Source of the DNA: Paracoccaceae bacterium
GTDB taxonomy: Bacteria; Pseudomonadota; Alphaproteobacteria; Rhodobacterales; Rhodobacteraceae
Length of the DNA: 35,631 bases
Reading direction: 5' to 3'
Assembly (NCBI GenBank): GCA_011620265.1
Contig: WOZM01000274.1
Span: 2,149-37,779 of the forward strand
Shown here: piece after piece, positions 2,065 through 34,446 of the stretch
Layout: each line of letters opens with the position of its first letter
Position numbering within the stretch: the first letter of the stretch is position 1
The notes under the pieces: model-generated
The model's input: only the letters and a program-made list of their open reading frames with translations
Database searches by the model: none
Told to the model about the DNA's origin: nothing
Translations under genes and position numbers: made by a program

Positions 2065-2098
2065 GGCGGCCCCGGAATCCGAGACGGAAGGAAGACAA

Positions 2099-3349: not shown

Positions 3350-3366
3350 CCATGAAGGACGCGAGC

Positions 3367-4815: not shown

Positions 4816-4830
4816 GCGGGTGGCGAGGCC

Positions 4831-4870
4831 GGGAGCCTCCGGCGGAGGTATTTGGGCCACAATGAAAGGG
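4831..4870 (+). repeat. Dispersed 40-base repeat, copy B, between phnY and pbfA
   Basis: This copy begins GGGAGCCTCCGGCGG, continues GGTATTTG and ends ATGAAAGGG. It matches copy A at 11287-11326 at 33 of 40 positions without gaps. Related copies are at 19811-19856 and, on the minus strand, 28738-28791. The 3' end, AAAGGG at 4865-4870, is spaced 6 bases from GTG 4877, which is in frame with pbfA, so it can act as the ribosome binding site of the next gene. Confidence 0.8.
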
Positions 4871-4906
4871 AAGGGCGTGATCAGCCATACCGAGGGCGAG
4901 TCCAAT

Positions 4907-6226
4907 ATGTCCGAGGCGCGGGCGGACTGGGCGGCGCGCCATCCGGACGCGGCGACGCGGGAACTTCTGTCGCGCGACGCGGGGGCGTTCCTGCACCAGT
5001 CGCTGTCCTCGCCGTGCCTTTCCACGATCGCGAAGGCGGAAGGCATCTGGATCGAGGATACGGCCGGGCGACGATACATGGATTTCCACGGCAATTCGGT
5101 CCATCATATCGGCTATGCCCATCCGCGTGTCGTGGCCGCGATCAAGGCGCAGCTCGACGCGTTGAGCTTCTCGCCGCGCCGGTTCACAAACGAAGTGTCG
5201 GTAGAACTGGCCGAGGCTCTGGCGGCGCTGGCGCCGGGCGATCTCGGCAAGGTCCTTTTCACCACCGGGGGGTCGGACGCGAACGAGGTGGCGCTGAGGC
5301 TCGCGCGGGCCGCGACGGGACGGTTCAAGACGCTGAGCTTCTGGGACGCCTTCCACGGCGCCGGGTTCGGCGCGTCGAGCGTCGGCGGCGAGGCGACGTT
5401 CCGCAGCGGCATCGCGGGGCCGCTCCTGCCGGGGGCCGAGCATGTCGCGCCGTTCAACTGCTATCGCTGCGCCTACGGTCATCCGGGACCGGAGGCCTGC
5501 GGCCTCGCCTGCGCGAAGATGGTGGACTACGTCCTGGAACGCGAAGGCGACGTTGCCGCCGTCATCGCCGAGCCGATGCGGGCCGTGCCCGTGGTGCCGC
5601 CGCCCGGCTTCTGGAAGGCGGTGCGGGCGGCCTGCGACCGGCACGGCGCGCTTCTGATCCTGGACGAGATCCCGACCGGGCTTGGCAAGACCGGAGCCAT
5701 GTTCGCCTTCGAGCATGACGAGGTGGTCCCCGATATCGTGACGCTCGGCAAGGCGCTCGGCGGGGGGATATTGCCGATCGCGGCCGTCGTGGCGCGGCGC
5801 GATCTCGACGTCTGCGGCGATTTCGCCATCGGCCACTATACCCATGAGAAGAACCCGGTGACCGCGCGGGCGGCTTTGGAAACGCTCGCCGTGATTCGCG
5901 AGGAGGGGCTTGTCCAGCGCGCGGCGGAGCTTGGCACCCATGCCCTGGAACGACTGCGCGCGGCGCTGGGCGATTGCCGGATCGTCGGGGACATCAGGGG
6001 ACGCGGCCTGATGTTCGGCATCGAGATCGTCGAGGATCGCGACAGCCGGCAGGCGGCGAAGGAGCGGGCGGAACGGATCTGTTACCGCTGCCTCGAGGCC
6101 GGTCTCAGTTTCAAGATCAGCGCCGGATGCGTCCTGACCCTGTCGCCGCCGCTGGTCATCGGGCGCGCGGATCTCGACCGGGCGCTCGACATCGTGGGCG
6201 AGGCGATCCGGGCCGAGGCGGCCTAG
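4907..6226 (+). CDS. pbfA: (R)-1-hydroxy-2-aminoethylphosphonate ammonia-lyase (class III aminotransferase fold)
   Basis: This 439-residue PLP protein has a class III aminotransferase fold: phosphate-binding TTGGSDANE near residue 120, PLP aspartate D253 in LILDEIPTG and Schiff-base lysine K282 in TLGKALGGG. In this operon the best match is PbfA, which removes ammonia from (R)-1-hydroxy-AEP to give phosphonoacetaldehyde. It would thus give PhnY a second supply beside PhnW. The YMDFHGNSVHHIGYAHP region near residue 58 fits the PbfA group as I recall it. Four cysteines (C185, C188, C198, C202) cluster in one loop. Two starts are possible: ATG 4907 with a weak GAGGG, or GTG 4877, ten codons upstream, which has a better-spaced AAAGGG. 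The gene ends in a CTAG shared with the convergent deoR-type gene. A true omega-amino-acid transaminase remains possible. Confidence 0.85.
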   Translation: MSEARADWAARHPDAATRELLSRDAGAFLHQSLSSPCLSTIAKAEGIWIEDTAGRRYMDFHGNSVHHIGYAHPRVVAAIKAQLDALSFSPRRFTNEVSVELAEALAALAPGDLGKVLFTTGGSDANEVALRLARAATGRFKTLSFWDAFHGAGFGASSVGGEATFRSGIAGPLLPGAEHVAPFNCYRCAYGHPGPEACGLACAKMVDYVLEREGDVAAVIAEPMRAVPVVPPPGFWKAVRAACDRHGALLILDEIPTGLGKTGAMFAFEHDEVVPDIVTLGKALGGGILPIAAVVARRDLDVCGDFAIGHYTHEKNPVTARAALETLAVIREEGLVQRAAELGTHALERLRAALGDCRIVGDIRGRGLMFGIEIVEDRDSRQAAKERAERICYRCLEAGLSFKISAGCVLTLSPPLVIGRADLDRALDIVGEAIRAEAA

Positions 6227-6978
6227 CCAGCCAGCGTCAGGGCCGTTCCCGTCGCTGCGAGCGCCGCGGTGATCTCGGGTGCTGGCGGCCGGTCGGTGAT
6301 CACCTCTCCGATACCGTCGAAACCGGCGACGCTGATCAGGCCGCGGCGGCCGAATTTCGAGTGATCGGTGACAACGACCCGGCGTTCGCCGCGCGACAGG
6401 ACGAGGCGGGCGAATTCCGCCTCTTCCAGCGCATAGTCCATCACCCCGGTCGCATCGACGGCGCCGGCGGAGATCACCGCATGGTGCACCGTGAAGCGGG
6501 CGATGAAGTCGAGGGCGGATTTGCCGAAGGCCGCGCCGGAATCGCTGCGCAGCTCTCCCCCCGCCATATAGACCCGGTTGCCATTCACCGTGGCGAGGGT
6601 TCGGGCGATGTCGGAGGAGTTGGTGACCACTGTCAGCCGCCGGTGTCCCACCAACTCGCGCGCGACGTAGCTCGTCGTCGTGCCGGTATCGAACATCACC
6701 GATTCGCCGTCGCGGATCGACGCCGCGACGGCGCGCGCGATCGCCTGCTTGGCGGCGGCATTCTCGCGCATTCGCTTCTGGAAGGGTGCCTCGCCGATCT
6801 GTCCGGCGAGGCCGACCGCGCCATGGACCCGCATCACCGCGCCGGTCTCGCTCAAGGGTCTCACGTCCCGCCGCACGGTTTCGAGCGAGACGCCGAGCTG
6901 GCGCGCCAGCGCCGAGATCGTCACCGTGCCCTCGGCCTCGAGGATCTTCAGGATGTCGGAATGGCGCTTGGACAGCAT
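6223..6978 (-). CDS. DeoR/GlpR-family transcriptional regulator
   Basis: This 251-residue regulator has the DeoR-type N-terminal helix-turn-helix (LSKRHSDILKILEAEGTVTI followed by SALARQLGVSLETVRRDVRPL) and a C-terminal sugar-phosphate-isomerase-like effector domain with the usual MFDTGTTTSYVAREL and VVTNSSDIAR segments. The start at ATG 6978 gives the canonical N-terminus and has GGAG 9 bases upstream. An in-frame ATG at 7032 would add 18 residues unlike the family. The gene converges on pbfA and their stop codons overlap in one CTAG. It diverges from the betaine-type transporter operon across about 220 bases, so that operon is its most likely target, with the phosphonate genes a second option. 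DeoR proteins usually sense phosphorylated metabolites; the effector here is unknown. Confidence 0.9.
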   Translation of the reverse strand: MLSKRHSDILKILEAEGTVTISALARQLGVSLETVRRDVRPLSETGAVMRVHGAVGLAGQIGEAPFQKRMRENAAAKQAIARAVAASIRDGESVMFDTGTTTSYVARELVGHRRLTVVTNSSDIARTLATVNGNRVYMAGGELRSDSGAAFGKSALDFIARFTVHHAVISAGAVDATGVMDYALEEAEFARLVLSRGERRVVVTDHSKFGRRGLISVAGFDGIGEVITDRPPAPEITAALAATGTALTLAG

Positions 6979-7018
6979 GATCACGGGCTCCGGCGATGGC
7001 GCGATCTTAGGCGAGATG

Positions 7019-7030
7019 GCGCACTTGCGC
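7019..7030. promoter_or_regulatory. Small perfect dyad in the deoR-type / transporter intergenic region
   Basis: GCGCA-CT-TGCGC is a perfect 5-2-5 inverted repeat about 40 bases upstream of the DeoR-type start and about 55 bases upstream of the candidate promoter of the transporter operon. It is a possible operator for the DeoR-type protein, but dyads this short are common by chance in GC-rich DNA. Confidence 0.25.
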
Positions 7031-7082
7031 AATTATCGGGCATGAAACGGGCACGAAAATCACAAAAAGCCACACAAGCCGA

Positions 7083-17451: not shown

Positions 17452-17472
17452 GGTATCGGCATGGCCGATACC
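17452..17472. promoter_or_regulatory. Perfect 9-bp inverted repeat directly after the LysR stop
   Basis: GGTATCGGC-ATG-GCCGATACC begins at the base after the LysR stop codon. The perfect 9-pair arms with a 3-base loop could form a terminator-like hairpin; the following bases are T-rich (CTTTCTTTT) but not an unbroken run. It could equally be a dimeric regulator site for the next operon. Confidence 0.6.
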
Positions 17473-17475
17473 ACC

Positions 17476-17491
17476 TATCTTTCTTTTGATA
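17476..17491. promoter_or_regulatory. Candidate operator upstream of polyamine-type operon
   Basis: TATC - 8 bases - GATA is a dyad in the AT-rich part of the 165-base gap between the LysR gene and the binding-protein gene. The size suits a LysR box. Support is positional only. Confidence 0.3.
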
Positions 17492-17616
17492 TTGCGAATG
17501 ATCCGGGCCGGTCACAGACTAGGGCCAGCTTGGCCCGCGCCGGGCGGTGCGGCCGCGCGCGCATCGGAGGGCGGCGCGGACAACAGAAAAAGACGTCAAC
17601 AGGAAGGTGCACTACC

Positions 17617-18768
17617 ATGAAAAGGCTGCTTGTTTCCACAACGATTCTCGCGTTTTCGGCGGCCACCGTCGCCTCGGCGCAGATGACGGCCGTGGGCGAC
17701 GGCGAGGGCCAGGTCGATATCGTCGCCTGGCCCGGCTATGTCGAGCGCGGCGAGACCGATGCCGCATTCGACTGGGTGACCAGGTTCGAGGAGGCGACGG
17801 GCTGCAAGGTCAACGTCAAGACCGCCAACACCTCGGACGAGATGGTGGCGCTGATGAACGAGGGCGGGTTCGACCTCGTGACCGCCTCCGGGGATGCCTC
17901 GCTGCGGCTCGTCGCCGGCAAGCGGGTACAGGCGATCAACACCGACCTCATCCCGTCCTGGGCGAATGTCGACGACCGGCTGAAGGACGCGTCCTGGTTC
18001 ACCGTGGACGGGGTCCATTACGGTGTGCCCTACCAGTGGGGGCCGAACGTCCTGATGTACAACACCGAGGTCTTCCCCGAGGCGCCGACCTCGTGGGCCG
18101 TGGTCTTCGAGCCGATGGACCTGCCGGACGGCAAGCCCAACAAGGGCCGGGTGCAGGCCTATGACGGGCCGATCCATATCGCCGATGCCGCGCAATACCT
18201 GATGGCGCACAAGCCCGAACTGGGCATCACCTCGCCCTATGAGCTGAACGAGGACCAGTACAAGGCCGCGCTTGATCTGCTGCGTCAGCAGCGCGAGCTT
18301 GTCAGCCGCTACTGGCATGACGCCTTCATCCAGATGGACGATTTCAAGAACGAGGGCGTCGTCGCCTCGGGCTCCTGGCCGTTCCAGGTGAACCTCCTCA
18401 AATCCGAAGGGCTGCCGATATCCTCGACAATCCCCGAGGAGGGGGCCACCGGCTGGGCCGACACCACGATGATGCATGTCGATGCCGCCCATCCGAACTG
18501 CGCCTACAAGTGGATGGAGCACACGCTGAGCTCGAACCTGCAATCCGACCTCTCGGTCTGGTTCGGCTCGAACCCGGTGACGCCGGCCTCCTGCACCGAT
18601 GGCTCGGGCGCGCAGACCGCCGAGGGCTGCACCGCGAACGGCATGGACGATTTCGAGAAGATCCGCTTCTGGACCACGCCGGTCGCGAACTGCGCGCAAG
18701 GCGAGGGCGCCTGCGTGCCCTATTACCGCTGGGTCTCGGACTATATCGGCGTGATCGGCGGCCGGTAG
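17617..18768 (+). CDS. Polyamine-type ABC transporter substrate-binding protein (PotD/PotF-like)
   Basis: This 383-residue periplasmic binding protein has a clear signal peptide (KRLLVSTTILAFSAATVASA, cleaved before QM). The mature start VDIVAWPGYVERGETD and the WVTRFEEATGCKV segment are typical of PotD-like proteins. It carries an aspartate/tryptophan-rich pocket region (PYQWGPNVLMYNTEVF, SWPFQVNLL). Six cysteines in the mature chain (GCK, NCA, SCT, GCT, NCA, ACV), four of them in the last 70 residues, suggest disulfide bonds not usual for PotD. It leads an operon with ATPase, two permeases and gamma-aminobutyraldehyde dehydrogenase, which points to putrescine or a related diamine. An AGGAAGG lies 10 bases before the ATG. 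Confidence 0.9.
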   Translation: MKRLLVSTTILAFSAATVASAQMTAVGDGEGQVDIVAWPGYVERGETDAAFDWVTRFEEATGCKVNVKTANTSDEMVALMNEGGFDLVTASGDASLRLVAGKRVQAINTDLIPSWANVDDRLKDASWFTVDGVHYGVPYQWGPNVLMYNTEVFPEAPTSWAVVFEPMDLPDGKPNKGRVQAYDGPIHIADAAQYLMAHKPELGITSPYELNEDQYKAALDLLRQQRELVSRYWHDAFIQMDDFKNEGVVASGSWPFQVNLLKSEGLPISSTIPEEGATGWADTTMMHVDAAHPNCAYKWMEHTLSSNLQSDLSVWFGSNPVTPASCTDGSGAQTAEGCTANGMDDFEKIRFWTTPVANCAQGEGACVPYYRWVSDYIGVIGGR

Positions 18769-18789
18769 GCGCGGACACCGGGGGCAGAG

Positions 18790-18915
18790 GCGCCCCCCAC
18801 CCCCATCCCCTCCCCACGGGGGGGGGGAGGGGAGCCGCCCGTCGCCCGTCCTTGCCACGCCCGCCCGCAGCGCCTCCCTCCCCCCCTCGAGGGGGAGGGA
18901 TGGGGAGGGGGGCGT
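18790..18915. repeat. GC-rich imperfect inverted-repeat element between binding-protein and ATPase genes
   Basis: The left end (18791-18815, CGCCCCCCACCCCCATCCCC then TCCCC) is nearly the reverse complement of the right end (18891-18915, GGGGGAGGGATGGGGAGGGG then GGCGT). Inner parts also pair: CCCC with the G10 run near 18818, and CCTCCC with GGGAGG around CTCGAG near 18889. The 170-base gap is otherwise empty. It looks like a REP- or MITE-type palindromic element; as RNA it would form strong hairpins separating binding-protein expression from the rest of the operon. Confidence 0.65.
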
Positions 18916-18937
18916 CACCCGAGCCAGTCGAGAGCCC

Positions 18938-19960
18938 ATGACCCCAGCCGTCGAATTCCAGTCCGTCTCGCGCCACTTCGGAACGGTGAAAGCCGTCGAC
19001 CGGGTGGACCTCGCCATCGCCGAAGGCGCGTTCTTCGCCATGCTCGGGCCGTCGGGCTCCGGCAAGACGACCTGCCTGAGGCTGATCTCGGGCTTCGAGA
19101 TGCCGAGCGCGGGCACGGTGCGGATCTTCGGCGAGGATATGGGCGCGGTGCCGCCCAACCGGCGCCACGTGAACACGGTCTTTCAGGACTACGCGCTCTT
19201 TCCGCACATGTCGGTGCGCGACAATGTCGGCTACGGGCTGATGGTCCGCGGGGTCGACCGGCGGGCGCGCCGGGCGAAGGCCGAGGAGATGCTGGCGCTC
19301 GTCAAGCTCGACGGATTCGGCGACCGCAAGCCCGCGCAGCTTTCGGGCGGGCAGCGGCAGCGGGTGGCGCTGGCCCGGGCGCTCGTCAACGAGCCGCGGG
19401 TACTCCTGCTGGATGAACCCTTGGGCGCGCTCGACCTGAAGCTTCGCGAGGCGATGCAGGATGAGTTGAAGTCCTTGCAGCAACGCCTTGGAATCACGTT
19501 TGTTTTCGTCACACACGATCAGGGGGAGGCGCTCTCCATGGCGGATCGGGTCGCGGTCTTCAACGAGGGCCGCGTGGCGCAGGTGGGCACGCCCGCCGAG
19601 ATCTACGAGCGGCCCGCGACACGGTTTGTCGCGGATTTCGTGGGCTCGTCCAACGTGCTGCCGCCCGAGATTACCGCGGCTGTCGGCGGGCCGCGTGCCT
19701 GGGCGAGCCTCAGGCCCGAGGCGATCCGGATTGCCTCCGAGGGGCGGCTGCGGGGCATTGTGACCGGCGCGCGCTATCTTGGCGCGGGCACCCGGATCGA
19801 GGTGTCGGCCGGGGCGCTGCCCCGGACCCCGGGATATTTGCCGCAAGATGAAGGCGGCATCGCGGTGCTGGTTCCGGCCGGACGCGCGGTTCCGGCGGTG
19901 GGCAGCGAGGTCGCGCTCGACTGGGACGAGGGCGCGCTGCATCTGATGGAGGGGGCATGA
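18938..19960 (+). CDS. Polyamine-type ABC transporter ATP-binding protein (PotA/PotG-like)
   Basis: This 340-residue ATPase has Walker A GPSGSGKTT (residues 37-45), Q-loop VFQDYALFPH, signature [15 protein letters not shown] (135-149), Walker [13 protein letters not shown] and switch histidine in FVTHDQGEAL. The C-terminal TOBE-type domain (about 240-340) is typical of the PotA/CysA group. Oddly, residues about 292-306 (AGALPRTPGYLPQDEGG region) are encoded by a copy of the dispersed repeat, so a stretch of the TOBE domain derives from an intergenic element. The frame stays intact. The stop overlaps the start of the first permease (ATGA). Confidence 0.93.
   Translation: MTPAVEFQSVSRHFGTVKAVDRVDLAIAEGAFFAMLGPSGSGKTTCLRLISGFEMPSAGTVRIFGEDMGAVPPNRRHVNTVFQDYALFPHMSVRDNVGYGLMVRGVDRRARRAKAEEMLALVKLDGFGDRKPAQLSGGQRQRVALARALVNEPRVLLLDEPLGALDLKLREAMQDELKSLQQRLGITFVFVTHDQGEALSMADRVAVFNEGRVAQVGTPAEIYERPATRFVADFVGSSNVLPPEITAAVGGPRAWASLRPEAIRIASEGRLRGIVTGARYLGAGTRIEVSAGALPRTPGYLPQDEGGIAVLVPAGRAVPAVGSEVALDWDEGALHLMEGA
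19811..19856 (+). repeat. Dispersed repeat, copy C, embedded in frame in the ATPase gene
   Basis: GGGGCGCTGCCCCGGACCCC is followed by GGGATATTTG, CCGCAAGATG and AAGG. The last 24 bases match copy A at 23 positions, while the left half matches the long variant seen in copy D (28738-28791, minus strand). It is translated as part of the C-terminal TOBE-type domain of the ATPase, about residues 292-306, with no frameshift. Confidence 0.8.
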
Positions 19961-20895
19961 CCGGGACCGCCGCCCATCCCGCGCGGGGGCCGGGTGATCG
20001 CCTGACCGGCCTTTTCTGGCGCCGGCCGAAGCTCCTGACCGCGCTCCTGATCGCGCCGCCGCTGCTGTGGCTCGGCGTCGTCTATGTCGGGTCGCTGGTC
20101 GCGCTCCTGATCCAGAGCTTCTATTCCATCGACCGGTTCTCCGGCATCGTCGTGAAGGAATTCACGCTGCGCACCTACGCAGAACTGCTGATCCCGTCGA
20201 ATTTCGACGTGATCGTGCGGACGGTGACGATGGCGGCGGCGGTGACGCTCGCCTCGGTCGTCGTGGCCTTCCCGGTCGCGTTCTTCGCGGCGCGGCATGC
20301 GAAGGGTCGCTGGAAGGCGGTGTTCTACCTCGGGATCATGCTGCCGTTGTGGTCGAGCTACCTCGTCAAGGTCTATGCCTGGAAGTTGATCCTGGCGAAG
20401 GAAGGCATCGTCACCTGGGCGGCCGAGGGGATCGGCGCGGGCAATCTCCTGAACGCGGTCCTGGCGCTGCCGGTCATCGGGGGGAATTCGCTTTCCACGA
20501 GCTATATCGGGACCTTCCTGGTCTTTCTTTACGTGTGGCTGCCGTACATGATCCTGCCGATGCAGGCCTCGCTCGAACGGGTGCCGACCTCGATGCTGGA
20601 GGCCTCGGCCGATCTCGGCGCGGGCGGCTGGCGGACCTTCCGGAGCGTGATCCTGCCCTTGGCGCTGCCGGGCGTGATCGCGGGGTCGATCTTCACCTTC
20701 TCGCTGACATTGGGCGACTACATCATTCCCCAGATCATCGGGTCGAGCCGGTTCTTCATCGGCCAGACGGTCTACAGCCTGCAAGGCACGGCCGGGAACA
20801 TCCCGCTCGCCGCCGCCTTCGCGGTCGTGCCGATCGCCATCATGCTGGTCTACCTGACCGTGGCGCGGAAGATGGGGGCCTTCGATGCCCTCTGA
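19957..20895 (+). CDS. Polyamine-type ABC transporter permease (PotB/PotH-like)
   Basis: This 312-residue inner-membrane permease has six or so hydrophobic segments and the coupling motif [25 protein letters not shown] (residues about 211-235), typical of binding-protein-dependent permeases. The N-terminal helix [18 protein letters not shown] and the long periplasmic loop after it are as in PotB/PotH. The start overlaps the ATPase stop and the end overlaps the next permease start by 11 bases, so the three are tightly co-translated. It forms the membrane channel together with the following permease. Confidence 0.93.
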
Positions 20896-21694
20896 CGCCC
20901 GCCCGCCCCTCGGCCTGACCCTCGGCGCCATCGCCGGCCTGGCCTTCCTGCACCTGCCGATCCTGATCATCTTCCTCTATGCCTTCACGACCGAGGAGCG
21001 GAGCTATCAGTTCCCGCCGCCGGGGCTGACGACGGAGTGGTTCGGCGTCGCCTGGAACCGGGCGGACATCTGGCCACCGCTTTACCTCTCGCTCAGGGTC
21101 GCGGCGATTTCCTCGGCGATGGCGCTGGTTCTCGGCACGCTCTGCGCCGCCGCGATGGCGCGGGCGAAGTTCTTCGGCCGCGACACGGTCTCGCTTCTTG
21201 TGGTGCTGCCGATCGCGCTGCCCGGGATCATCACCGGCATGTCGCTGCGCTCCGCCTTCGCCATCGGCGAGATCCCGTTCTCGACCTTCACCATCGTCCT
21301 CGGCCACGCGACCTTCTGCATCGTCATCGTCTACAACAACGCGGTGGCGCGGTTCCGCCGCCTCGGCCCCTCGATGCTCGAGGCCTCGGCCGATCTCGGC
21401 GCCAATTCGTTCCAGACCTTCCGGCACGTGATCCTGCCGAACCTCGGCTCGGCGCTGCTGGCCGGCGGGATGCTCGCCTTCGCGCTGTCGTTCGACGAGG
21501 TGATCGTGACGACCTTCACCGCCGGCCAGCAATCCACCCTGCCGATCTGGATGCTGAACGAACTGGTCCGGCCCCGGCAGCGGCCGGTGACCAATGTGGT
21601 GGCGATCGTCGTCTTCGTGGCGACCTTCCTGCCGATCCTTGCAGCCTATTACCTCACTCGCGGCGCCGAAGAGACCGCGGGCGGGGGCAAATGA
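20885..21694 (+). CDS. Polyamine-type ABC transporter permease (PotC/PotI-like)
   Basis: This 269-residue permease partners the preceding one. The first helix [20 protein letters not shown] is followed by the PotC-like AWNRADIW segment. The coupling motif [23 protein letters not shown] (about residues 166-188) matches that of the partner. It ends 13 bases before the aldehyde dehydrogenase start, in the same operon. Confidence 0.93.
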
Positions 21695-21707
21695 AAGGGA
21701 GAGCCCC

Positions 21708-23147
21708 ATGACGATGCAATTCGATACCAAGCTTTTGATCGGCGGCGCCTTCGAGCCGGGGCAGGAGCCGGGCGAGAAGGTGCTGAACCCGCGCACCGGC
21801 GCGCTGATCCTCGATCTGCCCGAGGCCTCGACCGATCAGGTGGACCGGGCCGTGGCGGCGGCGCGGGGCGCGTTCGCGGGCTGGTCGCGGACGACGCCGG
21901 GCGAACGCTCGGCCGCGCTGCTGGCCATCGCCGACCGGATCGAGGCCGAGGCCGACGGCTTCGCGGCGCTCGAGGCCTTGAACTGCGGCAAGCCGATCAA
22001 CGCGGCGCGGGGCGACGAGATTCCGGCCATCGTCGATTGCTTCCGCTTCTTCGCGGGCGCGGTGCGCTGCCAGCATGGCGCCATCGCCGGCGAATACCTC
22101 GCGGGCCACACCTCGATGATCCGCCGCGACGCGGTGGGCGTCGTCGCCTCCATCGCGCCCTGGAACTATCCCCTGATGATGATGGCCTGGAAGCTCGCGC
22201 CGGCCATCGGCGGCGGCAACACGGTGGTCTTCAAGCCCTCCGAGCAGACGCCGCTGACGGCGCTGAAGCTGGCGAGGATCCTTGCCGAGGTGCTGCCCGA
22301 GGGGGTCGTGAATGTCCTGCCGGGGCGAGGCGAGACGGTCGGCAACTACCTGATCCACCACCCCGGCGTCGACATGATCTCGCTCACGGGCGACGTGGCG
22401 ACCGGCAAGAAGATGCTGGATGCGGCGGCGAAGACGGTGAAGCGGACGCATCTCGAACTCGGCGGCAAGGCGCCGGTGGTGGTCTTCGACGACGCGGACA
22501 TTTCCGAGGTGGTCGAAGGGCTCAGGGCCTTCGGCTACTACAATGCGGGGCAGGATTGCACGGCGGCCTGCCGGATCTATGCGGGCAGGAAGGTCTACGA
22601 CAACCTCGTCGCCGACCTGACCGCCGCCGTCGCCACCATCCGGCTCGGCAACGCGGATGACACCACGAACGAGATCGGCCCCCTCATCTCGCTCCGCCAG
22701 CGCGACCGGGTGGCAAGCTTCGTCGAGCGCGCGCGCGAGCAGAACCATATCCATGTCACCACCGGCGGCGAGGTGACGGGCGAGGGCGGGTTCTACTACC
22801 GGCCCACGGTCGTCGCGGGCGCCCGGCAGACCGACGAGATCGTGCGGCGCGAGGTGTTCGGGCCGGTCGTCTCGGTCACGCCCTTCTCTGAGGTCGAGGA
22901 GGCGGTGAGCTGGGCCAATGACAGCGACTATGGCCTCGCCTCCTCGGTCTGGACCAGGGATGTCGGCCGGGCGATGGCGACGGCGGCGCGGCTGCGCTAC
23001 GGCTGCACCTGGATCAACACGCATTTCATGCTGGTGAACGAAATGCCGCATGGCGGGCTGAAGCAGTCGGGCTATGGCAAGGACATGAGCGCCTATGCGC
23101 TCGAGGATTACACCGTCGTCCGCCACGTCATGGTCAAGCACGGCTGA
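21708..23147 (+). CDS. patD: Gamma-aminobutyraldehyde dehydrogenase
   Basis: This 479-residue NAD+-dependent aldehyde dehydrogenase has catalytic cysteine C284 in [10 protein letters not shown] and general base E250 in HLELGGKAP, with the conserved PWNYP at 151-155 and C-terminal [12 protein letters not shown]. The whole sequence, including the [13 protein letters not shown] start, resembles the PatD/Prr (YdcW) group, which oxidises 4-aminobutyraldehyde from putrescine to GABA. Its place at the end of a polyamine-importer operon supports this. AAAGGGAGAG precedes ATG 21708. Betaine aldehyde or other aminoaldehydes may also be accepted. A putrescine transaminase or oxidase, which would feed it, is not in the window. 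Confidence 0.88.
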
Positions 23148-26401: not shown

Positions 26402-26425
26402 CGTTATTTCCGCGCGGGAATAACG
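26402..26425. promoter_or_regulatory. ModE-type operator 2, overlapping the modE stop codon
   Basis: A second exact CGTTAT - 12 - ATAACG dyad is centred 46 bases upstream of box 1 and covers the last codons and stop of modE. Two boxes with the same arms and same spacing are unlikely to be chance. They bracket the modA promoter and could allow cooperative binding. Confidence 0.75.
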
Positions 26426-26775
26426 GACATCGCGACCAGCGCCGCGATCTCGTCGGCAAGGGCCGCCCCGGCCTTGGCCTGCATGTCCCGGTAGAGCGCC
26501 AGAACCCGCCGCCCGGTCTCGGTCAACTCCGCCCCGCCATGCGCCGCGCCGCCGCGGCTGGCGCTGACCAGCGGATCCCGGAACATCGCGTTCAGCCCCT
26601 CGACGAGGCCCCAGGCACGCTTGTAGCTCATCCCCATCCGGCGGCCGGCGGCCGAGATCGAGCCGGTCTCGGCGATACCTTCGAGAAGGTCGGCCTTGCC
26701 CGGGCCGAGCCAGTCGCCACCATGGACGACAAGGCGGAGCTTCAGGCCGGGTGCGTTCCTTGGCGTTTTCGTCAT
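26404..26775 (-). CDS. modE: ModE-family winged-helix regulator without molybdate-binding domain
   Basis: This 123-residue protein has the N-terminal winged helix-turn-helix of ModE: GIAETGSISAAGRRMGMSYKRAWGLVEGL around residues 40-68, then the wing region GGAELTETGRRVLALYR. A full ModE continues with two Mop-type molybdate-binding domains, but this gene stops at about the end of the DNA-binding and dimer part. It must therefore either be constitutive, or sense molybdate through another protein, or not sense it at all. It lies 58 bases upstream of modA in the same direction, and a ModE box overlaps its stop codon. ATG 26775 gives a family-like N-terminus; an upstream ATG at 26793 adds six residues. 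Short ModE-type proteins of this kind are known in other bacteria. Confidence 0.85.
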   Translation of the reverse strand: MTKTPRNAPGLKLRLVVHGGDWLGPGKADLLEGIAETGSISAAGRRMGMSYKRAWGLVEGLNAMFRDPLVSASRGGAAHGGAELTETGRRVLALYRDMQAKAGAALADEIAALVAMSVIPARK

Positions 26776-26847
26776 GCTGCTTTCGAATCCCACCGGATCG
26801 CGTCATGCTACGGGGGCAGGGGCGGCAGGGAAAGGCGGAGGCGGCAG

Positions 26848-27315
26848 ATGCGCAAGGCCACGATCGCGGTCACGCAGTTCGCCTGCTCCCGGGATCTGCC
26901 GGACAATCTCGACCGGGCGGAGGCGATGGTGCGGCGGGCGGCCGGCGAGGGCGCCGAGATGCTGCTCTACCCGACCGCCATCGGTTCGGAGCCGCCGGCG
27001 CCGGGCTACGACAGCCAGCCGCATTGGGAAATGGCGATGCGCGGCCACGCGGCCGCGAACATCCTGCCCGTCGCCGCCTCCAACCGCATCGGCCGCGAGG
27101 TGCAGGAGGGGCGCGAGGTCACCTTCTACGGCGCGTCCTTCATCGCCGACCAGACCGGGCAGCTCGCCGCCACGGCGGGCCGCGACGCGGAGGCGGTGGC
27201 GCTGGCCAGCTTCGACCTCGACGGGATCCGCGACCTGCGCCGGAGCTGGGGTGTGTTCCGTGACCGTCGCCCGGATCTTTATGCGCCCCTTCAAGGCTTT
27301 GGCGGGCAAGGCTGA
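26848..27315 (+). pseudogene. aguB: N-carbamoylputrescine amidase remnant with in-frame deletion of the catalytic core
   Basis: The 155-residue frame starts and ends like AguB of the nitrilase superfamily. The N-terminus has TIAVTQFACSRDLPDNLDRA and the C-terminus has YPTAIGSEP, AASNRIGRE, FYGASFIAD and SWGVFRDRRPDLYAPL. A normal AguB is close to 290 residues. The first part (to about residue 40, GAEMLL) passes straight into YPTAIGSEP, so roughly 135 residues are missing between them. These would hold all three catalytic residues: Glu of the QELFE motif, Lys, and Cys of the GICWDQW motif. The reading frame is kept, so it is a non-functional remnant rather than a frameshift. The normal role is hydrolysis of N-carbamoylputrescine to putrescine in agmatine breakdown, fitting the polyamine neighbours. 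Confidence 0.85.
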
Positions 27316-27321
27316 CGCGGT

Positions 27322-28731
27322 TCAGAGGGTGGGCGGGCGCCGGTTCGGCCAGTCGGTCGCCCGGTGATAGGCATGGCCCATCGCGAGGATGGCCGCGTCC
27401 GCCCCGGTCGGACCGAAAAGCTGCATCCCCATCGGCAGGCCGCTCGCCCCGAACCCGGCCGGCAATGCGAGGCAGGGCAGCCCGATCAGGCTGACCGGCA
27501 CCACGATCTCCATCCAGCGGTGGTAGGTGTCCATCGGGCGGCCGTTGATCTCCCGCGGCCAGCGCCAGCCGGCCGGGAACGGCCAGACCTGCGCGGCCGG
27601 CAGCGCCAGCGCGTCGAACCGTTCGAAAAGCCGCGCCGCCCCGGCATACCAGCGCGAACGGATGACGCTCGCCGCATGGAGATCGGCGGCCGCAAGCCCG
27701 AGCCCCTGCTCGATCTCCCACAGGGTTTCGGGTTTCGTCAGGGCGCGCCGCGCCGGGTCCGACGCCAGCTCCGCCTTCGCCCCGGCATTCAGCATCGCCC
27801 GGAGCGTGGTCCACGAGCGCCACATCTCCTCGGCCGGGAAGGGCGGGGCGAGCGGCTCGACCACCGCGCCCTCCGCCTCGAAGACCGCAAGGGCGGCCTC
27901 GCAGAGACCGGCGATGCCCGGCTCCAGCGGATAGGCACCGCCCCAGTCGGCGAGCCAGCCGATCCGCCTGCCCGCGAGCGGCCGGTCGAGACCGGCGGCG
28001 AAATCCTCGGCGGGCCGGCCGAACGGGGTTTCGGGATTGGGACCGGCCAGGACGGTCAGCAGCCGGGCGACGTCCTCGGGACTGCGCCCCATCGGCCCTT
28101 CGGTGGACAGGGTCGCAAGGAACGTGTCGCCATCCGCATCCTGCGGCACGAGGCCCCAGCTCGGGCGGAAGCCGTAGACATTGCAGAAGGCGGCGGGATT
28201 GCGCAGCGACCCCATCATGTCCGACCCGTCGGCGACCGGCACCAGCCGCGCCGCCAGCGCCGCCGCCGCGCCGCCCGACGACCCGCCCGCACTCCGCGTC
28301 CGGTCATAGGGATTGAGCGTGGTGCCGTGCACCGGATTGAAGCTGTGCGAGCCATGCCCCCATTCCGGCGTATTGGTCTTGCCGATGAGGATGGCACCCG
28401 CCGCCTTCAGCCGGCGTGCGACGAGATCGTCGGCCTCCGGCACGAACTCGGCATGAAGCGGCGAGCCATAGGTCGTCCGGAGCCCCGCCGTCGCGACGAG
28501 GTCCTTCACCGCGACCGGCATCCCGTGAAGCCAACCCCGCCGGGGTGCGCGATCCGCCGCCGCGGCCTCTTCCAGAAGGTCCGCCCTCGGCCTCGGCGAG
28601 ACGATGGCGTTGATCTTCGGATTGACCGCCTCGATCCGGTCGAGAAAGGCCGCCATCACGGCGCGCGCCGAAACCGCCCCGCCCGCGATCCGCGCCGACA
28701 ACTCGGTCGCGCCCAGAGCGGTCAGGTCCAC
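27322..28731 (-). CDS. Amidase-signature family hydrolase 1, last gene of the second polyamine-type operon
   Basis: This 469-residue cytoplasmic hydrolase has the complete amidase-signature triad: K76 in PVAVKDL, cis-serine S151 in AGGSSGG, and nucleophile S175 in MMGSLRNPA, with the standard 24-residue gap between the serines. It should cleave a carboxamide; substrate unknown. The start codon is GTG 28731, preceded by AAGGGG 6 bases upstream from the dispersed repeat. It lies 88 bases after the second binding-protein gene on the minus strand and converges on the aguB remnant. Operon position suggests it acts on an imported amide or acylated polyamine. The sequence GSDMMGS differs from the usual GSDTGGS near the nucleophile. 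Confidence 0.9.
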   Translation of the reverse strand: MDLTALGATELSARIAGGAVSARAVMAAFLDRIEAVNPKINAIVSPRPRADLLEEAAAADRAPRRGWLHGMPVAVKDLVATAGLRTTYGSPLHAEFVPEADDLVARRLKAAGAILIGKTNTPEWGHGSHSFNPVHGTTLNPYDRTRSAGGSSGGAAAALAARLVPVADGSDMMGSLRNPAAFCNVYGFRPSWGLVPQDADGDTFLATLSTEGPMGRSPEDVARLLTVLAGPNPETPFGRPAEDFAAGLDRPLAGRRIGWLADWGGAYPLEPGIAGLCEAALAVFEAEGAVVEPLAPPFPAEEMWRSWTTLRAMLNAGAKAELASDPARRALTKPETLWEIEQGLGLAAADLHAASVIRSRWYAGAARLFERFDALALPAAQVWPFPAGWRWPREINGRPMDTYHRWMEIVVPVSLIGLPCLALPAGFGASGLPMGMQLFGPTGADAAILAMGHAYHRATDWPNRRPPTL

Positions 28732-28737
28732 CGCTTT

Positions 28738-28791
28738 CCCCTTCTTCGTTGCCCAAATACCCTGGGGGGTCCGGGGGGCAACGCCCCCCGG
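28738..28791 (-). repeat. Dispersed repeat, copy D (long variant), upstream of amidase 1
   Basis: Read on the minus strand it has the hairpin CCGGGGGGC-GTT-GCCCCCCGG, then CGGACCCCCC, GGGTATTTG, and ends with GAAGAAGGGG. The hairpin has perfect 9-base arms at 28771-28779 and 28783-28791. The final AAGGGG (28738-28743) lies 6 bases before the GTG of amidase 1. It combines the left arm type of copy C with the ribosome-binding tail of copies A and B. Confidence 0.8.
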
Positions 28792-28796
28792 CGGAT

Positions 28797-28814
28797 CGGG
28801 CGCGCAAGCGCCCG
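28797..28814 (-). terminator. Hairpin after the second binding-protein gene
   Basis: CGGGCGC (28797-28803) pairs with GCGCCCG (28808-28814) around a 4-base loop, directly after the binding-protein stop at 28820 on the minus strand. There is no T-run, so it may only slow transcription or shield the mRNA end. The repeat hairpin at 28771-28791 follows it. Confidence 0.45.
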
Positions 28815-28819
28815 AAACC

Positions 28820-29845
28820 TCACTTCTGCAACTCGGTCCAGATCGCCGTGTAGTAGCCCTGCGCCGTCGGCGAGCAGGTCGGCAGGAACTTGCCGGCGGC
28901 CTTGAACTCCTCTGGAATGATGATCTCCGGCGCGGTCTTCATGTCCTCCGGCATGAAGGCGTCCGACCCGCTGATGCCGTTCGCATAGCGCGCGAAAGAC
29001 GAGATCAGCGCGGCATTTTCAGGCACCATGATGAAGTCGAGGAACTTGTACGCTTCCTCGACGTTCTGGGCGTCCGACAGGAGCATCACCTGATCCATCC
29101 AGAGCGGAAATCCTTCCTTGGGATAACCGTAGACGATATCCGGGTTTGCCAGACGCGCGCGGAAGATCGCGCCGTTCCAGTAGACCGATGCCATCACATC
29201 GTTGGCAGCCATCTTTTCGGTCATGCCGTAGTCCATCGACAGCCATTTCGGTTTGGCTTCGAGCAGCGCATCGCGCACCTTCTTCAGGACCTCGGTATCC
29301 TCGGTGCAAGGCTCGCCGCCTTCGTACATGATCGCCAGCGACAGGACGTCGTTCATCTCGGGCGTCACGTTCACCTTGCCCACCAGTTCCTCCGGCGGAT
29401 CCATGAAGATGGCCGAGGTGTTGATGTCGCCCGAATAGGCGGTCTTGTTCACCGCGACGCCGGTCGACCCCCACTGCCACGGCACCGAGAACTTCCGGCC
29501 CGGATCGTAAGAGACGTCCATCCATTCGGGCGCGATGTTGCCGTGATTGGACAGCTTTGACAGGTCCAGTTCCTGCGCGAGGCCCTTTTCGACATAGATC
29601 TGGACGTAGTTTGCCGACGGCACGACGAGGTCGAAGCCGTGACCGCCCGCCTCGATCTTCGCAAGCGCTGTGTCGTTGGAATCGTAGTCAGTGATCGTGA
29701 CCTTGATGCCGGTTTCCGCCTCGAATTTCGAGATCAGTTCGGGATTTGTGTAGTCGCCCCAGTTGAAGAGCTGCAATGTGCCCTCGGCGTGGGCGAGCGA
29801 TGTCGACACCATCATCATGGCCACGGCTGAAAGGTACTTTCTCAT
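28820..29845 (-). CDS. Polyamine-type ABC transporter substrate-binding protein (PotD/PotF-like), system 2
   Basis: This 341-residue periplasmic protein starts with a signal peptide (MRKYLSAVAMMMVSTSLAHA, cleaved before EGT). The mature start LQLFNWGDYTNPELISKFEAETGIKV is nearly the textbook PotD/PotF N-terminus. Other family segments are GHGFDLVVPSANYVQIYVEKG and FSVPWQWGSTGVAVNK. Two cysteines (PCT, TCS) may form a disulfide. It is the fourth gene of its operon, after ATPase and two permeases, and ahead of an amidase. Ribosome binding site AGGGAG is 6 bases before ATG. Ligand probably spermidine, putrescine or a related compound. Confidence 0.93.
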   Translation of the reverse strand: MRKYLSAVAMMMVSTSLAHAEGTLQLFNWGDYTNPELISKFEAETGIKVTITDYDSNDTALAKIEAGGHGFDLVVPSANYVQIYVEKGLAQELDLSKLSNHGNIAPEWMDVSYDPGRKFSVPWQWGSTGVAVNKTAYSGDINTSAIFMDPPEELVGKVNVTPEMNDVLSLAIMYEGGEPCTEDTEVLKKVRDALLEAKPKWLSMDYGMTEKMAANDVMASVYWNGAIFRARLANPDIVYGYPKEGFPLWMDQVMLLSDAQNVEEAYKFLDFIMVPENAALISSFARYANGISGSDAFMPEDMKTAPEIIIPEEFKAAGKFLPTCSPTAQGYYTAIWTELQK

Positions 29846-29865
29846 TTTTTACTCCCTGTTGGTTG

Positions 29866-30669
29866 TCAGTCTTTTTTGCGCGTCAGAAAGAAGAACGCCG
29901 TCAGGAGGACGACGGTCAGGACGAGCAGCACCGTCGAGATGGCATTCACCTCGCTGGTGACCTGGCGCCGGATCTGTCCAAGCATGTAGGTTGGAAGCGT
30001 ATCCTGCCCCGCGGATTTAACAAACACCGTTATAACAACATCGTCGAGCGATGTGACAAAGGCCAGCATCAGACCCGCGATCATCCCCGGTGCCAGAAGC
30101 GGCAGAGTCACGCGGCGGAACGTCTGCCACGGCGAGGCATAGAGGTCGGCCGCCGCTGTTTCGAGTGTCAGGTCCATCCCTTCAAGCCGCGCGCGGATCG
30201 GCAGATAGGCAAAGGGTATGCAGAACGCCGAATGCGCCGCTATCAGGTAGCCGAGCCCTTGATAGCCCGTCGCCACCTTGATCGACGCAAAGAAGATCAG
30301 GAGCGCCACCGCCGTCACGATTTCGGGCACCATGAGGGGCTGGTTGATCATGACATAGATGAATGTCTGGCCCTTGAACGCCTTGCGCCGCGTCGTTCCG
30401 AGCGCGGCCATCGTCGCCGCGACCGTTGCCACCACCGAGGCGCAGCTTGCGATGACAAGCGAGCGGACGGTGACCTCCTTCACCTGCTGGTTCGCCCAGG
30501 CGCGCGCGTACCAGTCGAGGGTGAAGCCTTCCCAGACGGCAACCGATTTGCCCGAGTTGAACGAGTAGAGCACCAGCATGAGGATCGGCAGGTACAGGGC
30601 GGCGAAAACCAGCAGCGCCATCGTGCTGAAACCGGGAAGCCGCGAGACCGAGAACGCTTTGTTAGCCAT
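29866..30669 (-). CDS. Polyamine-type ABC transporter permease (PotC/PotI-like), system 2
   Basis: This 267-residue permease has the PotC/PotI features: LPGFSTMALLVFAALYLPILMLVLYSF at the start, WYARAWANQQVKEVTVRSLVIA, and the coupling motif ETAAADLYASPWQTFRRVTLPLLAPG. ATG 30669 is chosen because it gives the MANKAFSVSRLPG start; it overlaps the partner permease by 8 bases. The alternative upstream in-frame start at 30705 would add 12 basic residues and overlap the partner further. It ends 20 bases before the binding-protein gene. Confidence 0.93.
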   Translation of the reverse strand: MANKAFSVSRLPGFSTMALLVFAALYLPILMLVLYSFNSGKSVAVWEGFTLDWYARAWANQQVKEVTVRSLVIASCASVVATVAATMAALGTTRRKAFKGQTFIYVMINQPLMVPEIVTAVALLIFFASIKVATGYQGLGYLIAAHSAFCIPFAYLPIRARLEGMDLTLETAAADLYASPWQTFRRVTLPLLAPGMIAGLMLAFVTSLDDVVITVFVKSAGQDTLPTYMLGQIRRQVTSEVNAISTVLLVLTVVLLTAFFFLTRKKD

Positions 30670-31570
30670 CGGTCTTCTCCGGTGCCGTGACGCGCACATA
30701 GACAAGAAGCGTCAGGGCCACGATGACAAGCAGCAGGACCGACAGCGACGCGCCGAGTGGCCAGTTCCGACCCTGACCGAATTGCAGGTCGATGAAATTG
30801 CCGATCATCATCTGTCGTCCGCCCCCGAGAATGCGCGGCGTGACATAGGCGCCGAGCGACGGGATGAAGACGAGGATCGAGCCTGCGACGATGCCGGGCC
30901 TGACGATGGGCAGGATGATCCTGCGAAGGACCTGCCAGCGGCTCGCATAAAGGTCGTATCCCGCCTCGAGGAGCCTCAGGTCGAAGCGATCGATCGCGGC
31001 AAAGAGCGGAAGCACCATCAGCGGCAGGTAGACATAGGTCATCCCGATGAAGACGGCCGTGTCCGTATAGATGATGTTGATCGGCGTCTCGATGAGTCCG
31101 GCCTTTATCAGAACGGTGTTCAGCAATCCTTCATTGCGGATGATCTGGTTGATCGCGAAGGTCCGGATCAGCAGGTTCGTCCAGAACGGGATCGTGATCA
31201 GGAACAGCCAGAGCGCTCGGGACGCCGGCGGCCGCATCGCGATGAACCACGCCGTCGGGAACCCGACGATGAAGGTGAAGATGGTCGTCAGGATGGACAG
31301 CTTCACCGACCGCCAGAAGATCGTCAGATGCGCGTCCGCAAGCTTCAGCGTGTTGTCGAAGATATCCCGCGTGAACAGAATCCCCCGCCATGCATCGGTT
31401 GAGAACTGCCATTCGACGTTGCCGTATTTTCCGGGCGTCAGGAAGGAATAGACGAACATGATCATGAGGGGGCCTGTCGCGGCCAGCGTCAGGATGACGA
31501 GCGCAGGCGTGGACAGCAGCCAGGCATTGCGGGCTGCCCGCGTGTTCTGCCGGTTCTCGCTGGTGCTCAC
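30662..31570 (-). CDS. Polyamine-type ABC transporter permease (PotB/PotH-like), system 2
   Basis: This 302-residue permease starts at GTG 31570, 2 bases after the ATPase stop. The first helix WLLSTPALVILTLAATGPLMIMFVYSF and the LLEAGYDLYASRWQVLRRIILPIVRPG coupling motif are typical of PotB/PotH. It overlaps the next permease by 8 bases and probably pairs with it to form the channel. Confidence 0.93.
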   Translation of the reverse strand: MSTSENRQNTRAARNAWLLSTPALVILTLAATGPLMIMFVYSFLTPGKYGNVEWQFSTDAWRGILFTRDIFDNTLKLADAHLTIFWRSVKLSILTTIFTFIVGFPTAWFIAMRPPASRALWLFLITIPFWTNLLIRTFAINQIIRNEGLLNTVLIKAGLIETPINIIYTDTAVFIGMTYVYLPLMVLPLFAAIDRFDLRLLEAGYDLYASRWQVLRRIILPIVRPGIVAGSILVFIPSLGAYVTPRILGGGRQMMIGNFIDLQFGQGRNWPLGASLSVLLLVIVALTLLVYVRVTAPEKTDG

Positions 31571-31572
31571 TC

Positions 31573-32640
31573 TCAGTCCTCCAGAACCTGGACCGCGCCC
31601 GGCGCGAAGCTGATGCCGACGACGGCGCCCGGCTTCGGCTCGCCGGCCCCGTCGGGATCGGTCTGCTGGCGCGCGACAAGCTCGGTCCCGTCGAGCAGCT
31701 TCAGGTGCACATGGCTGTCGGTGCCGAAATAGACCGAATGGCTGACCGTGGCCGAAAGCGCGCCGGCCATGCCCTGCGGCACCAGCCTGAGATGCTCCGG
31801 CCGGACGGCGAGGGTGGCCGCGCCATCGGCACGGCTCTGGCCGATCTTCAGCTCGACCCCGCCCGCCAGATGGGCGGCCCCGCCACGGATCCGCGCCGGA
31901 ATGAAATTCGTCTCGCCGATGAAATCGGCGACGAAGCGGTTGGTCGGACGGGCGTAGATCTCGCGCGGGGAGCCGATCTGAAGAATGCGACCGCCCGACA
32001 TCACGCCGATCCGGTCGGACATGGTCAGCGCCTCTTCCTGGTCGTGGGTGACGAAGACGAAGGTGATGCCGGTCTCGAGCTGGAGCCGCTTCAGTTCGCC
32101 CTGCATCTCCTTGCGGAGCTTCAGGTCGAGCGCCGAGAGCGGCTCGTCGAGCAGGAGCACCTTCGGCTTCGGCGCAAGGGCCCGGGCCAGCGCCACGCGC
32201 TGCTGCTGGCCGCCCGAAAGCTGCGCCGTCTTGCGCCCCGCCATCGCCTCGAGCTTGACCAGCGCCAGCATCTCGGCCGTGCGCTGCTCGACCTCGGCCT
32301 TCGGACGGCCGAGCATCTCGAGGCCGAAACCGATATTCTCGGCGACGCTGAGATGCGGGAAGAGCGCGTAGCTCTGAAAGACCGTGTTCACCGGCCGCCT
32401 GTTCGGCGGCAGGTCGGTGATGTCCTGACCGTCCAGAAGGATCGTGCCCGAGGTCGGGCTGTCGAAACCGGCGATCAGCCGCAGGAGCGTGGTCTTGCCG
32501 CAGCCCGACGGGCCGAGAAGCGTGAAGAATTCCCCCTGCCGGATCGCGACCGAGACCGTGTCGAGGGCGCGGACCGCCCCGGCACCCTGGCCGAACTCCT
32601 TGACCGCGTCGCGGGCTTCGACGGCATAGGTGTCTGTCAC
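31573..32640 (-). CDS. Polyamine-type ABC transporter ATP-binding protein (PotA/PotG-like), system 2
   Basis: This 355-residue ATPase starts at GTG 32640. Walker [13 protein letters not shown]-loop [10 protein letters not shown], signature [15 protein letters not shown], Walker [13 protein letters not shown] and switch [11 protein letters not shown] are all intact, and the C-terminal TOBE-type domain is complete ([10 protein letters not shown] end). It is the first gene of a minus-strand operon, ATPase-permease-permease-binding protein-amidase. A near-ideal AGGGAC lies 9 bases before the start. It belongs to the same PotA/PotG group as the system 1 ATPase but is a separate copy. Confidence 0.94.
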
Positions 32641-32726
32641 TCTGCGGTCCCTCCCCAGGTGGGCGTCAGAATTTGATCATTTGGCGGTTTGAGCATCGCG
32701 CCTTTCCCGATGGTCGACGAAGGCGA

Positions 32727-32742
32727 CGTTTGTTGTCAAACG
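32727..32742. promoter_or_regulatory. Palindromic operator candidate with embedded -35 element
   Basis: CGTTTG-TTGT-CAAACG is a perfect 6-4-6 dyad 87-102 bases upstream of the ATPase GTG. On the minus strand it contains a consensus TTGACA -35 hexamer (32734-32739); the best -10 18 bases further is the weak GACCAT. A repressor bound here would cover the promoter. No matching regulator gene is adjacent. Confidence 0.5.
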
Positions 32743-32787
32743 ATTCCTCCGATCCCTGTTTCCCGGTCCGGCCTCAAGCTGCATTGA

Positions 32788-34251
32788 TCAAATCCCTTTC
32801 GGCCCCGCCCCGGCGCGCGCTGCCGGCGGCCGCCGCCCGGCCCAGGGGCGGGCGGTTTCCAGCTCGGCCGAGAGCGCGATCAGTTCCTCGTCGGCGCCGA
32901 AGCGCGCGGCAAGGTGAATGCCGATCGGCAGGCCCTCGGCGGTCCAGTAAAGCGGCAGCGACGCGGCCGGCTGGCCCGAGGCGTTGAAGGCGGCGCAGAA
33001 GGGGGAATAGTCGAAGACCATCCCCGCGCCCATCCGGTAGTCGACATAGTCCCTGCCGGCATGGGAAAACCGCCCGACCATCGCCGGCGGCTCGGCCAGC
33101 GTCGCGGTCAGGAGCATGTCCCATCCGTCGAAAAACCCAGCCATTTCGCGGCCATAGGCGTGGATCTTGCCAACCGACTCAAGGTAGTCGGCGCCCGAGA
33201 TCGTGGCGGCATAGTCGAGGGTGGAGCGGCTCACCTCCTCGACATCGTCGGGGCCAAGCGCGCGGCCCTTCGCGGCGAGCGCCTTGCGGATGCCGAGCGC
33301 CGTGCCGCAGCCGACGATCTTCGTCCAGGCGGCCATCATGCCCTTGGTGTCGGCGCCGGGCCGGGCGGGTTCGACCGCATGCCCGAGGCTTTCGAGAAGC
33401 GCCGCCGCGTCGCGCACCGCGTCGCGGCAGTCGGGGTGGATCGCCTCGCCGGTCAGCGTCGTCTCGCAGAGCGCGATCCGCAGCCGGCGCGGCGGTCGGG
33501 CGATCGCCGCCCGGTAGCCCTTGCCGAGGGGCGGCGCCCAGTAGGGCGCGCCGGGATCGGCACCTTCGCAGGCGTCGAGCAGCACCGCGCTGTCGCGGAC
33601 CGAGCGGGTGAGGAAGCCGTCGATCGCCATTCCCGCCCAGCCTTCGCCGGCATAGGGCCCGTCCGGCAGCCGCGCCCGCGTCGCCTTGAAGCCGTAGAGC
33701 CCGCAGCACGAGGCCGGGATCCGCACCGACCCGCCGCCATCCGACCCGTGCGCGGCCGGCACGATCCCCGCCGCCACGGCGGCCCCGGCGCCGCCCGACG
33801 ATCCGCCCGGCGTGCGGGCGAGGTCCCAGGGATTGCGCGTCGGCCCGCCATGGATCGCCGCCTCGGTCGCAGGGCCGACCCCGCCCTCGGGCGAGGTGGT
33901 GCGCCCGAAGGTCACGACGCCGGTCGCGCGGATGCGCTCGAAGATCGCGCTGTCGAGCCGGTAGCGCGTGTTCGCCAGCAGCCGCGAGCCGTTATGCGAG
34001 GGGAAGTCCACCGCCTCGCAGCCGAGGTCCTTCAAGAGGAAGGGCACGCCGCGAAGCGGCCCGTCGGGCAGGCCGGCCGCGATGGCGGCGCGGGCCTTCT
34101 CCTCCTGCATCAGCACCACGGCGTTGAGGGCGGGGTTGCGCGCCGCGACCCGGTCGAGCGCCGCGTCGAGCAACTCGCCCGCCGAAACGGCGCCATTCGC
34201 GACCGCCGCCGCCATCGCGGTCGCATCCCAGTCGTCGTATTCCGCGATCAT
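32788..34251 (-). CDS. Amidase-signature family hydrolase 2
   Basis: This 487-residue hydrolase has the amidase-signature triad K74 in FLLKDLG, S151 in PGGSSGG and S175 in GGGSVRIPA, again 24 residues apart. ATG 34251 is preceded by GGGGGCGG; in-frame ATG codons at 34272 and 34386 have weaker sites, and the latter would add 45 unrelated residues. The C-terminal part has [22 protein letters not shown], a family-conserved segment. It is on the same strand as the polyamine operon but 147 bases upstream of it, separated by the candidate operator and promoter, so it likely forms its own unit. The N-terminus diverges from clpP. Substrate unknown. Confidence 0.9.
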
Positions 34252-34446
34252 CTGCCGCCCCCAAGCCGCCATCCGAGGCCAGTTAGACACAGCAGGCCGG
34301 CTTCGGCAATCGCCTGGGCGCCGGAGAGGGGCGCACCCCCGCCGCGCGAAGGCAGAGCGGCCCTTGCAGCCCCCGGCGCGCGTCACTAAGACAAGGGTAA
34401 GGTTCTGTGCATAAGCATTTCACCCGGGAACAGCGACAGGCGGACG

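Follow-up and report, generated by a model that had tools for sequence, protein, structure and literature searches.

The locus considered here raises the question of what is represented by a short open reading frame that codes for the two ends of an N-carbamoylputrescine amidase (AguB) and for nothing of its middle. It lies in a stretch of 35,631 nucleotides (the window) of contig WOZM01000274.1 from a Paracoccaceae bacterium (GCA_011620265.1), whose genome is a draft of 309 contigs and 3.9 Mb, 95.5% complete. The original prediction, made from the DNA letters without database searches, held that the gene had lost its catalytic core by an in-frame deletion between two sites coding for Gly-Ala (GA), and that the event may be recent. 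We propose that this account is very probably right: one in-frame deletion, 402 bp long and at short homology, would have produced a recent, catalytically dead null allele of aguB.

The short frame and its intact orthologues

The AguB model TIGR03381 aligns with the 155-residue product in two stretches that correspond to the two model ends only and reach 175.4 bits in total, against a curated cut-off of 410.25 bits. In the best stretch, residues 34-147 align with positions 165-278 of the 279 in the model, and the N-terminal piece was located on positions 2-37 in the genome scan. The Pfam family CN_hydrolase gives 62.7 bits, with its best match over residues 29-132. Of the 22 genomes of the genus, 11 have an AguB that extends over 277 or more of the 279 model positions, ten of these above the cut-off. 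The original prediction had proposed a comparison with the closest relatives, and three of them (G021, G013 and G016) carry an intact aguB between the same neighbours, which supports the view that the core was lost from a formerly complete gene. The C-terminal part shares 88% identity over 125 residues with the syntenic intact gene of G021, whose product has 289 residues vs 155 in the window.

In these three genomes aguB is flanked on one side by modE-like, modABC and CbiX-like genes (names from ORF reading) and on the other by the amidase and the genes of the polyamine-type transporter (Table 1). The binding protein of this transporter is PotF/PotD-like but falls below the cut-offs of those models. 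Within the cluster, the potD-like gene (28820-29845) is 71% identical with that of G021 vs 89-91% with those of G013 and G016, and the potA-like gene (31573-32640) is 92% identical with that of G021 vs 81-82% with those of G013 and G016, a contrast that may be a sign of allele exchange. Elsewhere in the window, a second polyamine-type ABC transporter and an aldehyde dehydrogenase (names from ORF reading) lie at 17461-23147, with 87-95% identity to G021 and G016. The interval 877-6226 looks like an aminoethylphosphonate breakdown run (PhnW-like, PhnA-like and PhnY-like products and an aminotransferase), and it is followed at 6223-7032 by a DeoR-type regulator; these assignments are putative and come from ORF reading.

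Table 1. Features of the aguB locus, in window coordinates.
Feature	Position	Strand	Description
Probable ModE-N-type regulator	26404..26793	-	Conserved, flanks aguB opposite the amidase; name from sequence reading only
Short aguB ORF	26848-27315	+	155 codons + stop
aguB N-terminal part, left of the deletion	26848..26949	+	34 codons; aligns with residues 1-34 of intact relatives
Deletion junction GGCGCC	26950..26955	+	Codons 35-36, Gly-Ala; 402 bp of relatives absent here
aguB C-terminal part, right of the deletion	26956..27315	+	119 codons + stop; TIGR03381 positions 165-278
Intact amidase adjoining aguB	27322..28731	-	PRK07486 subfamily, 703 bits vs cut-off 465; also neighbours intact aguB in relatives
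Polyamine-type ABC transporter (substrate-binding protein, two permeases, ATPase)	28820..32640	-	Conserved neighbours; permease and ATPase names from ORF reading

Extent of the deletion and homology at its ends

All 14 relatives measured, hand-picked from 81 extracted genes, have 134 codons (402 bp) from the first GA or GG to the second GA; in the window the distance is 0. Six of the eleven genus loci (L035, L037, L039, L041-L043) are absent from the extraction and hence from this count; each of them covers at least 277 of the 279 TIGR03381 positions. The original estimate of about 135 residues missing between two conserved ends was right. It had also held that all three catalytic residues were gone, and the interval absent here does contain, in the three syntenic relatives, Glu43, Lys116, a pair of Glu starting at 126, and Cys153. 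In our own alignment these residues are equivalent to Glu48, Lys121, Glu132 and Cys158 of the Medicago enzyme (CPA), whose roles are described in PMC4812014. The residues AIGSE are kept, and by the same kind of alignment they include the equivalent of the substrate-orienting Glu187 of Medicago CPA (PMC4812014).

The junction preserves the reading frame and matches the register of the protein alignment. Comparison with the relatives assigns codons 33-34 to the left type and all codons from 37 on to the right type, so the crossover would fall within GGCGCC at 26950-26955, inside the interval of about 26950-26970 first put forward. In the 14 relatives, the exact run common to both sites is 3-8 bases long and 10-16 of 24 positions are identical; the similarity had to be measured in relatives, since the ancestral left copy of the window strain is lost. 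Against a background of all in-frame pairs some 300-500 bases apart in the same gene, the 24-base similarity is unusual in 11 of the 14 relatives (fraction of pairs as alike 0.0002-0.041) and not clearly so in the other three (0.085-0.30); taken by themselves, the exact shared runs often do not exceed background length. This similarity fits a deletion at short homology. Of the recombination between two similar GA sites originally proposed, the location of the break thus holds, but the shared sequence amounts to only 3-8 exact bases and is not clearly above background in 3 of 14 relatives; recombination between the two GA-coding sites is plausible, not proven.

Second copies, short homologues and competing explanations

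A full-length aguB elsewhere in the genome, which the original prediction had suggested looking for, was not found in the draft assembly, and neither was the missing core (309 contigs, 95.5% complete). The 133-residue core of G021 has as its best match in the source genome a paralogue (35% identity, E 2.3e-10), compared with E values of at most 1e-72 in four control genomes, among them G021 itself, the source of the query. A second functional copy, which would speak against a pseudogene, was accordingly not found within this draft. The source genome codes for five other CN_hydrolase proteins, four of which match the AguB model at 39-82 bits; a substitute AguB among them was rejected, with at most 82 bits vs the cut-off of 410. 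A near-identical plasmid copy was also sought: nine records matched, none of them covering 80% of the query, and eight of the nine matches fell under a gene annotated as an amidase.

The same frame could belong to a family of short homologues, conserved in many genomes, which the original prediction had named as the outcome that would tell against decay. A match in one piece to residues 1-155 was found in no genome besides its own, either among 22 genomes of the genus (14 with a match) or among 394 of the family (126 with a match). The latter result applies to the matches listed, weak ones left out, with at most nine candidates scored per genome, among which any one-piece match should rank at the top; and the query has no core, therefore the search could not favour full-length genes. 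In public loci, the Glu, Lys and Cys motifs stand in one frame in 80 of 80 (the best 80 of 105 relatives); of the eleven genus loci the same motif test missed three (L042-L044), each of which spans positions 1-277 of the 279 in the model. A further genome of this species was not found, and a limited search of the open literature found no paper announcing an AguB without its core. That the frame represents a natural short family of nitrilase-like proteins, with no damaged AguB involved, is so improbable as to be negligible: nothing was found in its favour, the intact gene stands at the same place in three relatives, and the idea is already refuted within the collections searched.

With regard to age, 54 of the retained positions show conservation in 90% or more of 38 relatives (those aligned, out of 75 usable references), and every one of them is unchanged in the window; this is not a strong sign, because 11 intact relatives put to the same test deviate at only 0-3 of 54-55 positions. 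The dN/dS ratio to G021 is 0.077 in the C-terminal part (112 codons) and 0.63 in the N-terminal part (34 codons, few changes), where 4 nonsynonymous and 1 synonymous changes fall on the window branch vs 5 and 4 on the G021 branch; this surplus of amino-acid changes is not significant (p 0.58). With 23 ambiguous sites set aside, the window branch has 6 nonsynonymous and 8 synonymous changes that are unambiguous, and the G021 branch 6 and 15, respectively (p 0.48). If the G021 ratio is taken as constrained, the neutral share of the window branch is estimated at about 0.14, with an upper bound of 0.42. A significant relaxation of selection is seen neither in dN/dS nor in the branch counts. Because of these ratios, counts and the neutral-share estimate, it can be surmised that the deletion occurred late on the branch or that the remaining protein is still constrained; either fits. 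The unchanged positions, the low C-terminal ratio and the small neutral share all support the recent event originally suggested.

The absence of significant decay beyond the deletion would equally fit a fault of assembly or library, or a short protein that has been retained, and both have to be weighed. It is conceivable that the organism has a full-length aguB and that 402 bp of it were lost through a chimeric read or an assembly mis-join, and the draft state of the genome, in 309 contigs, lends this some colour. However, no exact run longer than 8 bases is shared by the two sites in any of the 14 relatives, and short-read assemblers use word lengths above this; moreover, the missing core was found on no other contig, and the junction keeps both the frame and the register of the protein. 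We consider an artefact unlikely.

We give still less credence to the proposal of a folded half nitrilase, in which the short protein would be retained for some non-catalytic role, such as polyamine binding or pairing with a partner. The open frame, the 54 conserved positions and the low C-terminal dN/dS are in its favour, as is an alignment-guided structure model that is compact (mean pLDDT 85.9, pTM 0.78). This model is nevertheless biased, its alignment consisting, apart from the query, of 38 full-length relatives; the model built without an alignment is poor (mean pLDDT 48.0), and the guided model fits poorly on its best PDB matches, which are 24 chains of Medicago CPA (query TM 0.54-0.63, rmsd 6.9-8.7 A). 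The predicted structures may thus be regarded as weak evidence either way. Furthermore, the low dN/dS could be explained by constraint before the deletion, and the short form was seen in one genome only across the genus, family and public collections. A more specific version, in which the nitrilase fold has two comparable strand-helix-strand units, one of them excised by the deletion at matching positions to leave a compact 155-residue half nitrilase, still selected for a new non-catalytic role such as polyamine binding, appears marginally less probable again.

We favour the single deletion. In the window lineage, an in-frame loss of 402 bp would have joined two short similar stretches of aguB, which encode Gly-Ala at the ends of two comparable helices, and would have removed codons 35-168 (or 36-169) with Glu43, Lys116, the second conserved Glu and Cys153. 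Short-homology recombination or slippage is the probable cause, and the deletion is presumably present in the organism and not in the assembly. Close relatives have intact orthologues and the essential residues are lost here, the combination by which a pseudogene is recognised; the 155-residue product is presumably unable to run the nitrilase-type reaction, and the gene would be a young pseudogene with an open frame. The loss of aguB is real but ordinary, one more gene loss at short homology. As a cleanly bounded example, with both break points at similar coding motifs within one enzyme, it has limited value.

Pathway context and relation to known systems

Agmatine deiminase (PF04371, aguA), which the original prediction had also suggested looking for, was not found in the draft source genome. 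It is found in 3 of the 22 genus genomes, all three among the eleven with a full-length aguB. Its absence is no part of the decay, because the other eight of these eleven have no match to it either; some of the aguA-negative genus genomes are incomplete drafts, G016 being 77% complete. In public loci, agmatine deiminase lies within the stretch examined in 40 of 80 (the best 80 of 105 relatives), a count that rests on two sound queries, and it is absent from that stretch in the twelve nearest relatives (L071-L082) and in L087. Most likely, therefore, aguA was already missing before aguB suffered its deletion. In the source genome, two proteins exceed the cut-off for agmatinase, and two others belong to the ornithine/arginine decarboxylase family.

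AguB, or its remnant in the window (26848-34386), stands beside the amidase and the polyamine-type ABC transporter without aguA in L151, L152, L153, L071 and L073 as well. Where the substrate of AguB comes from in a clade that keeps it next to these genes and has no agmatine deiminase is a testable question; it is a guess that N-carbamoylputrescine reaches these cells by uptake.

AguY was considered as a substitute activity because an amidase adjoins the damaged aguB. According to PMC12283126, AguY is an unrelated amidase that also hydrolyses N-carbamoylputrescine, its two assayed proteins have 568 and 584 aa, and its genes adjoin aguA. The amidase in the window has 469 aa, belongs to the PRK07486 subfamily and occurs in a genome without aguA; on these three traits, all of which mismatch, the neighbour was rejected as an AguY. 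With N-carbamoylputrescine amidase itself (TIGR03381; Medicago CPA structures 5H8I-5H8L), the window product shares both ends and an orthologous locus. It differs in having lost 134 residues with the catalytic set: at 175 bits against a cut-off of 410 it falls outside AguB by score, and it does so again by the catalytic Glu-Lys-Cys and second Glu, all within the missing interval, whereas by common descent, seen in the synteny with G021, G013 and G016 and in the alignment of the remaining parts, it belongs to AguB. In-frame deletion pseudogenes can arise at short direct repeats. The window gene resembles such pseudogenes in its one contiguous deletion between short similar sequences, with the frame left open, and no notable difference is apparent; its two sites probably encode Gly-Ala at comparable ends of helices in the nitrilase fold.
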